Part shown: positions 11,200 through 31,158 of the stretch, piece after piece | Layout: every line of letters starts with the position of its first letter | Numbering within the stretch: position 1 is the first letter of the stretch | NCBI GenBank assembly: GCA_002746215.1 | Contig: NVWI01000001.1 | Location: 479,140-511,282, forward strand | Length of the DNA stretch: 32,143 bases | Reading direction: 5' to 3' | DNA from: SAR86 cluster bacterium | Lineage (GTDB): Bacteria > Pseudomonadota > Gammaproteobacteria > Pseudomonadales > Pseudohongiellaceae | Program-made: the position numbers and the translations under genes | Notes under the pieces: generated by a model | Told to the model about the DNA's origin: nothing | The model's input: only the letters and a program-made list of their open reading frames with translations | The model's database searches: none

Positions 11200-11490
11200 A
11201 TGCAAACGAACTCCATGCCTGATGAATTACTAAGCTTACGTGATCAAATAGATGCACTTGATGATGAACTCTTATTAATTTTGGCTAAGAGGTTTGAGGT
11301 GACCGCTAGAGTCGGTAAGCTCAAAGCAGATAAAGGTCTGGATTCTGTCGATGAAGAACGGGAAAAACAAAAGTTAATTGATCTAAGAACGCGGGCTGAA
11401 GAAAAAGCCCTTAACCCTGAATTTGTATTAAATCTTTTCAATATGATATTCGCAGAGGTTGTAGGGAATCATCGTGCGTACCTTACGTAA
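11200..11490 (+). CDS. Small chorismate mutase (AroQ class), stand-alone
   Basis: This enzyme converts chorismate to prephenate, the branch point to Phe and Tyr. The 96-residue all-helical protein aligns without gaps to the mutase domain of the E. coli P-protein. Active-site equivalents are Arg14, Arg31, Lys42, Asp51, Arg54 and Glu55. Two positions differ: Val87 for E. coli Ser84 and His91 for Gln88. It is not fused to a dehydratase or dehydrogenase and has no signal peptide. ATG 11200 follows GGAAG; a second Met at 11215 would also retain the domain. Its position, between priA and rpmE, is not one I know from Pseudomonas or E. coli. A mutase-like fold with another substrate (isochorismate pyruvate lyase) is less likely but not excluded. 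Confidence 0.85.
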   Translation: MQTNSMPDELLSLRDQIDALDDELLLILAKRFEVTARVGKLKADKGLDSVDEEREKQKLIDLRTRAEEKALNPEFVLNLFNMIFAEVVGNHRAYLT

Positions 11491-11514
11491 CGCAAATCTT
11501 AAGCAAACCAGCTC

Positions 11515-11542
11515 TTGCTAAATAATGCGACTCTGCTAGAAT
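11515..11542 (+). promoter_or_regulatory. Candidate sigma70 promoter of rpmE
   Basis: TTGCTA (11515-11520) and TAGAAT (11537-11542) are separated by 16 bases. A TG lies one base before the -10 box (extended -10). A GC-rich stretch follows, as in many ribosomal-protein promoters. Transcription would begin near 11549, giving an 85-base leader before rpmE. Confidence 0.55.
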
Positions 11543-11548
11543 TCGCGC

Positions 11549-11633
11549 TCTTTTTTATCTAGAAGAATATGGTGCCTGCAACGAATATTTATAGTTCGTT
11601 GCTTAGGTGGCGATATTCAGTTTGAGGCCTTTC
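11549..11633 (+). promoter_or_regulatory. rpmE 5' leader with strong hairpin, candidate L31 autoregulatory leader
   Basis: GCAACGAA (11578-11585) and TTCGTTGC (11595-11602) form a perfect 8-bp stem with a 9-base loop. CCT/AGG (11575-11577 and 11605-11607) can extend it across a two-base bulge. A GAGG ribosome site (11624-11627) sits 6 bases before the rpmE ATG. Ribosomal-protein L31 leader motifs, including a gammaproteobacterial one, are described in RNA family collections; I assign this by position and shape, not by a model search. Confidence 0.5.
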
Positions 11634-11843
11634 ATGAAAGCAAAAATACATCCTAAGTATGAAGATACGGTAGTAACCTGTGGTTGCGGTAATGTTATCA
11701 ACACTCGCTCTACTTTAGGTGGTGAGCTACGAGTTGATGTTTGTTCCCAGTGTCACCCTTTTTATACAGGGAAGCAAAAGATTGTTGATACGGGCGGCCG
11801 TGTCGATCGCTACAAGAAGCGTTTTAGCAATCGTAAGCTATAA
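11634..11843 (+). CDS. rpmE: Large ribosomal subunit protein bL31, zinc-binding form
   Basis: This is bL31, a late-assembly protein that bridges the two ribosomal subunits. The correct start is the ATG at 11634 (MKAKIHPKY), giving 69 residues and a GAGG ribosome site 6 bases upstream; the frame stays open upstream but the extra residues are not L31. Zinc ligands of the C+ form are present: CGCG (Cys16, Cys18) and CSQC (Cys37, Cys40). The stop lies 6 bases from the mrcA stop on the opposite strand, and a small CTGTT/AACAG hairpin (11846-11858) spans the junction but has no proper U-tract. Confidence 0.97.
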
Positions 11844-30783: not shown

Positions 30784-31158
30784 ATGAGTTCAATTGTAAG
30801 AAAATTTAGCATTGGAATAGCGCTGTTTGCTATGACTTCTTCACTAGGTCTAGCACAGGATCGTCAAATTGCTGGAACTAATTGTACAAATCCAGTAGTA
30901 CCGAGCATTCCTGGTGATGCAGGTCAAGATGTTGAGACACTTCTAGATGCACAAGATGCCGTACAAGCGTTCATGGCTGATTCAAACGCTTTTATTGATT
31001 GTTTAGAAAACGTTATGGATCGTCGCTCACGTCGTGGTTTAAACCAGGAAACCAGCGATCTATGGACGGCCTCAATTAATGGGAATATAGATGCGCAGGA
31101 AACAATTGCTGCGGCGTTTAATGAGCAAGTTCAAATTTACCAAGCCAGTGAAGATTAG
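30784..31158 (+). CDS. Small secreted protein of unknown function
   Basis: This 124-residue protein has a clear signal peptide: SSIVRKF, hydrophobic core IGIALFAMTSSLGLA, cleavage probably after Ala24. The mature part of about 100 residues has a Pro/Gly-rich start (CTNPVVPSIPGDAG), two cysteines (34 and 73) that could form a disulfide, and predicted amphipathic helices (about 50-80 and 100-120) with AQDAVQAFMADSNAFIDCLE and FNEQVQIYQA. The pattern resembles small uncharacterised secreted proteins that I recall from many proteobacteria, but I know of no named function. A very strong ribosome site (GGAGGGGAG) and a strong terminator suggest a well-expressed single-gene unit. Confidence 0.85.
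   Translation: MSSIVRKFSIGIALFAMTSSLGLAQDRQIAGTNCTNPVVPSIPGDAGQDVETLLDAQDAVQAFMADSNAFIDCLENVMDRRSRRGLNQETSDLWTASINGNIDAQETIAAAFNEQVQIYQASED

Follow-up and report, generated by a model that had tools for sequence, protein, structure and literature searches.

The translational operator of the Escherichia coli rpmE gene, which encodes ribosomal protein bL31, is reportedly that described by Aseev et al. in 2020. In gammaproteobacteria, bL31 represses the translation of rpmE by way of a conserved hairpin with two critical internal bulges; this operator hairpin separates the Shine-Dalgarno (SD) sequence from an AU-rich bS1 enhancer, and it is the N-terminal segment of bL31 that acts in the repression, according to the review PMC10931766. 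Single positions of the E. coli hairpin have been assayed by mutation, in experiments that measure repression by the zinc-lacking paralogue of bL31 (Rasmussen et al. 2022, PMC9825181). In that study, the substitution G79U, which closes bulge 1, almost completely eliminated regulation; a symmetric bulge 2 eliminated it and U54C acted similarly; deletion of both Gs of bulge 1 kept regulation, and changes in the upper stem and loop were of little effect. Comparative work has described five L31 leader motifs, all of them single hairpins, and places the gammaproteobacterial one (Rfam RF03157) just upstream of rpmE; those of Actinobacteria, Coriobacteria, Corynebacteriaceae and Firmicutes are also single hairpins before rpmE with bL31 as the presumed ligand, and are described as motifs that seem unrelated in structure (Eckert and Weinberg 2020, PMC7247131). 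A literature search returned no title on the rpmE leader in the order to which the organism studied here belongs (Pseudomonadales), and the leader may have been detected earlier in some of its species (PMC7247131).

The window analysed here, a stretch of 32,143 nucleotides from a SAR86 cluster bacterium, carries an rpmE gene of the zinc type, the product of which matches Pfam Ribosomal_L31 with 110.7 bits and has the four-cysteine pattern. To judge from sequence comparison, the hairpin in the leader of this gene is very probably of the same kind as that by which E. coli bL31 limits its own synthesis (Table 1). A first-pass annotation of the window had proposed an L31-type autoregulatory leader in which a perfect 8-bp stem, extendable to 11 bp, formed the bL31-binding hairpin. 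That stem (GCAACGAA paired with TTCGTTGC) was found, as were its extension by CCU and AGG across a UU bulge, the GAGG and the 85-base leader, the length of which depends on a start inferred from the -10 element. Beyond that account, there is a lower stem (GAATAT/ATATTC) and there are two internal loops, and the hairpin ends 5 bases before GAGG and 15 before the AUG of the bL31 gene. The word GAATAT occurs twice (11565-11570 and 11583-11588), and either copy can pair with ATATTC at 11613-11618; this repeat, seen in the window only, could give an alternative fold.

Table 1. Features of the rpmE leader and its surroundings (positions in the window; P1 and P2 are the lower and the next helix of the hairpin).
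Feature	Position	Strand	Basis
Probable promoter: TTGCTA, 16-nt spacer, TAGAAT, with TG at the extended -10 position	11515-11542	+	Promoter scan, conservation in the genus
GC-rich stretch TCGCGCTC, between the -10 element and the inferred start	11543-11550	+	Identical in 5/5 genus leaders
rpmE leader (5' UTR), 85 nt	11549-11633	+	Start inferred from the -10 element
P1, lower stem, 5' side GAAUAU, pairs with 11613-11618	11565-11570	+	Fold, covariation in relatives
G of the G.G mismatch, partner G11612	11571	+	Corresponds to E. coli bulge 1 (G52/G79) in our own mapping
G-C11611 pair, U.G11610 wobble, inner-loop G11574	11572-11574	+	Fold, alignment
P2, 5' side CCU, pairs with 11605-11607	11575-11577	+	Fold, covariation
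Apical 8-bp stem (11578-11585/11595-11602) with 9-nt loop; variable tip	11578-11602	+	Comparison with genus and relatives
UU bulge between P2 and apical stem	11603-11604	+	Fold
P2, 3' side AGG; inner loop U11608-G11609; GC (11610-11611); mismatch G11612	11605-11612	+	Fold, alignment
P1, lower stem, 3' side AUAUUC	11613-11618	+	Fold, covariation
Shine-Dalgarno GAGG, 6 nt before ATG	11624-11627	+	Sequence
rpmE, ribosomal protein bL31 (zinc type), 69 aa	11634-11843	+	Pfam Ribosomal_L31

As in E. coli, the structure is a single hairpin between the promoter and the SD sequence of rpmE, with priA upstream (the frame in the window was named by eye). In our own mapping of the E. coli operator, G52/G79 falls on G11571/G11612, U54.G77 on U11573.G11610 and G55/AGA74-76 on G11574/U11608-G11609, and the G.G mismatch, the G-C and U.G pairs and an asymmetric inner loop follow one another in the same order in both leaders; RF03157, too, has the same gene and the same hairpin plan. 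Unlike that of E. coli, where the inner loop is G/AGA (1x3), the loop here is G/UG (1x2); the apical stem is longer and has the UU bulge, and priA and rpmE are separated by a reading frame for a free-standing chorismate mutase of 96 aa (CM_2, 70.6 bits) at 11200-11490 (+). A search with PF01197 at E ≤ 1 matched rpmE only in the 3.1-Mb, 98% complete genome and thus gave neither a second bL31 gene nor a zinc-lacking paralogue, in which the genome differs from that of E. coli; with one bL31 gene found, the role of the operator here would be simple autoregulation rather than a zinc-paralogue switch of the E. coli type. Elsewhere in the window, a reading frame of 124 aa at 30784-31158 (+) appears by eye to start with a signal peptide and has no Pfam match at E ≤ 0.001.

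The public model makes no call at this site. Rfam at its gathering threshold gave no match in the window, and the significant match to an Rfam L31 leader model that the first-pass annotation had looked to did not appear, since RF03157 scores 11.7 bits (E 4) against a gathering cut-off of 33.2. This sub-threshold alignment is in register with the structure of the window and ranks behind an unrelated family at E 1.6; the other L31 families gave nothing at 11480-11700 up to E 10. In the whole genome, the single match listed for RF03157 lies elsewhere than in the rpmE leader, and none of the five leaders of the genus is listed at E ≤ 10. The same model scores the E. coli leader at 60.1 bits, and across the order it exceeds its cut-off in 4 of 194 genomes and reaches E ≤ 1 in 65 of them. 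By that model's own cut-off, the rpmE leader falls outside RF03157.

To compare the leader with those of its relatives, bL31 genes were gathered from named contigs (at least 80 loci), from the order (a bL31 match in 188 of 194 genomes) and from the family (57 of 59). Upstream DNA was taken for part of the loci, about one per genus outside the family, and the 244 loci gave 236 distinct upstream stretches, among which E. coli, actinobacteria and further phyla are represented. Of the 236, 78 satisfied a strict descriptor (GGTG ... T[AG]GCG, with at least 4 pairs below and at least 3 above); 100 dinucleotide-shuffled controls averaged 0.03 and never exceeded 1, and the reverse complement gave none. 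In the genus itself the window and two other leaders (L002, L114) pass, and the remaining two (L112, L113) fail by one mismatch each. When the sequence anchors alone were sought and no pairing was demanded, 114 of the 236 qualified, and 8 on the reverse complement. In this anchor-only set, none of 1000 partner swaps gave standard pairs as often as the true partners did at P1 pairs 1-5 and P2 pairs 2-5. The first pair of P2 hardly varies, and 62 of the 1000 swaps did as well there; beyond these pairs, pairing is at chance level.

The first alignment (A1) had 83 rows. Nine of these, in which an anchor was misplaced or matched by chance (L003, L010, L055, L149, L150, L163, L165, L225 and L230), were dropped, leaving 74 leaders with the own genus excluded (A2); a further set excludes the whole family (A4, 58 leaders). 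Both A1 and A2 were limited to rows in which the anchors are at most 42 nt apart. As the nine rows were dropped by eye, A2 is biased in favour of the structure, a selection of which the anchor-only swaps are free; likewise, the letters GGTG and T[AG]GCG are invariant in A2 partly by construction, because they were used as search anchors. In A2, 94.3% of cells pair, and the covariation score is 0.598 against 0.248 in shuffles, which ignore relatedness, and at most 0.138 with partners slid, a control that keeps it. Two-sided changes occur in 168 cells against 49.6, and are seen in nine of the 12 pairs, a count not above that of shuffles (8.4; 251 of 500); of the other three pairs, two are constant and one changes on a single side. 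With the family excluded (A4), the score is 0.462 against 0.219 in shuffles and at most 0.118 with partners slid, and nine pairs have two-sided changes against 6.3, with 6 of 500 shuffles as good. The covariance check that had been suggested at first pass therefore came out in favour of the structure, base pairs being kept by compensatory change among relatives in A2, in A4 and in the anchor-only swaps. Genus members share the G.G mismatch, the U.G wobble, the inner loop and P1, apart from one A.A mismatch (in G204), and one member (G201) has a compensatory change of A11566-U11617 to G-C.

The part of the hairpin that is conserved, to judge by these alignments, is its base, and the perfect 8-bp stem is its variable tip. 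The apical part of the leader in the window differs from those of all four other genus members, and among the 74 relatives its length runs from 5 to 28 nt (median 9; 23 in the window); the stem stressed in the first-pass annotation is hence the least conserved part. It is probably a structural cap, the length and sequence of which are of little importance. The rpmE leaders of three relatives (L119, L120 and L234) have much longer hairpins on the same lower stem, that of L119 reaching 100 nt; longer forms such as L119 lie outside the 74-leader set, and in these three leaders the expanded arm may be more than a cap.

Two covariance models were used in searches: R1, made from the 74 leaders of A2 with the own genus held out, and R2, from which the whole family was held out. 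R1 finds the site in the window with 27.6 bits (E 1.6e-5; next site E 3.7), and a genome search that scored 150 of 487 first-look candidates reported this site (E 0.0016) and no other up to E 10; in larger searches with stricter filters, the genome was listed once and missed twice. For the leaders of the other genus members R1 gave 37.0, 36.4, 33.7 and 17.4 bits; in the E. coli leader it located the hairpin correctly, with 14.2 bits (E 0.053). R2 ranks the site first in the window (23.5 bits, E 0.0018; next E 6.1); at E ≤ 1 it finds 19 of the 57 family loci and misses 38, and it did not find the E. coli leader.

Matches to R1 are largely confined to bL31 genes. At E ≤ 0.1 there are 109 matches in 101 of the 194 order genomes, 83 of them at 10-23 nt before a bL31 match, 10 elsewhere and 16 without a listed bL31 place. 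At E ≤ 1e-3, 88 of 89 matches have a bL31 gene directly downstream, which was already listed for 74 and was found in the fetched DNA for the other 14; the one exception is G170. Those 14 loci were all absent from the model, which includes most of the other 74 genomes or near relatives of them. In the class, R1 matched 28 of 274 genomes at E ≤ 0.1; the best 10 were fetched and all lie before bL31, and two weaker matches (G456, G515) do not. The family search gave matches at E ≤ 1 in 29 of 59 genomes, some of which are not beside bL31. Second targets away from rpmE were considered in ten fetched stretches (L257-L263, L267-L269) and in L272, all without a bL31 gene, and were rejected; the match in L258 sits within a 427-aa reading frame, and the off-rpmE matches are taken for chance matches, L258 being the main case in which the frames were looked at. 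Three of the off-rpmE matches have E < 1e-3 (2.1e-5 in G170, 6.2e-5 in G226 and 1.7e-4 in G214), so the rough E-values of the model are optimistic. Mimicry of rRNA was sought in a 2,243-base locus around the 5S gene, where the best R1 match had 5.0 bits (E 2.1); the 16S and 23S genes were covered by the R1 genome search.

With regard to transcription, the extended -10 promoter claimed at first pass is present with its TG, and a scan of 1 kb found one such site against a mean of 2.1 in shuffles, a count not above chance. It is the conservation of the hexamers in the genus (TTGCTA and TAGAAT in 5/5 leaders, TG in 4/5), and not the scan, that supports the call. A GC-rich stretch after the -10 element is a feature of promoters sensitive to ppGpp and DksA, and the one found here might act as a stringent-control discriminator. 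In E. coli, rpmE is under stringent control, as stated in PMC9825181. A U-rich run at the start of the leader (UCUUUUUUAU), looked at as a possible bS1 enhancer, is kept in the genus; among the 74 relatives the mean T content before the hairpin is 0.30, with no clear excess. An SD-like word, by a loose pattern, is found within the last 20 nt in 72 of the 74.

In all likelihood, on the evidence of these comparisons, the rpmE leader carries a bL31 operator, in which free bL31 would bind the base of the hairpin and lower its own synthesis. The reading of the site as an L31-type autoregulatory leader is supported by covariation, by a location next to bL31 that recurs throughout the order and by its correspondence to the E. 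coli operator. Counting against it are the Rfam score under the cut-off, the misses of R1 under stricter filters and of R2 in the family, the unremarkable number of two-sided pairs in A2 and, on the E. coli side, the regulation kept without both bulge-1 Gs and the use of a paralogue not found in this genome. The first-pass claim that the hairpin is the bL31 site is supported for the hairpin as a whole, with the likely binding determinants in the lower part, which had not been described, and not in the 8-bp stem. As far as comparison tells, the operator would work as it does in E. coli. Free bL31, left over when more of the protein is made than ribosome assembly consumes, would bind the lower part of the hairpin at the G.G mismatch, the U.G wobble and the asymmetric inner loop; binding through the N-terminal segment and translational repression are both inferred here from the E. 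coli work. As the hairpin ends so close to GAGG and the AUG, its occupied form would hinder 30S loading, and bL31 synthesis would fall.

Among the alternatives, the one that survives best is that rpmE mRNA has in this hairpin a conserved structural element, for stability or as a ribosome standby site, to which bL31 does not bind. Sequence comparison reveals a conserved structure and its place and not its ligand, which leaves room for such a role, but the conserved non-helical positions have their counterparts in E. coli among the positions that matter for repression, and the tip varies freely, as would be the case for a protein site at the base; we therefore regard it as unlikely. Very unlikely is control of rpmE by translation of a leader peptide: an 18-codon frame (ATG at 11569 to TGA at 11623-11625, +) does run through the hairpin and end at the SD sequence, and its ATG is present in four of five distinct genus leaders, but the ATG is absent in G204, the AT that it needs occurs in only 11 of the 74 relatives, the frame is not conserved, and the changes in P1 preserve pairing. 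It is also most improbable that the hairpin is due to chance and that rpmE is uncontrolled by its leader here. The 58-nt hairpin alone folds with -22.9 kcal/mol (z -5.24; 1 of 200 shuffles as good), and the fold of a 112-nt stretch is not exceptional (z -1.09; 28 of 200), so that stability alone is no proof of function and the case is carried by the comparison; this unremarkable stability and the lack of an Rfam match over the cut-off would suit a chance hairpin, but the matches of both held-out models and the covariation argue against it. A transcription attenuator in the leader is hardly credible, as the one terminator-like site called (11596-11613), with 0.9 expected by chance, has a tail (TATTCAGTTT) without a T-run and a stem that conflicts with the covarying one.

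The leader is, then, a divergent and otherwise ordinary example of a known control element. A more far-reaching version of the bL31 operator reading is distinctly unlikely: that the order has an operator subtype of its own, with a 1x2 inner loop, the core GGUGC...GU(A/G)GCG and an apical arm free to grow, from a compact 5 nt to about 100 nt in L119, the arm having a second regulatory role in some lineages; in the window, the two ways of pairing GAATAT with ATATTC would then allow a switch.

For the biology of the order, self-control by bL31 would be extended to a lineage in which the public model makes no call. Natural variation across the order and mutagenesis in E. coli point to the same positions, and the variation also indicates that the tip of the hairpin is dispensable. 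The leaders collected here could also serve to widen the Rfam family, given that R1 matches 101 of 194 genomes at E ≤ 0.1 and RF03157 only 4 of 194 over its cut-off.
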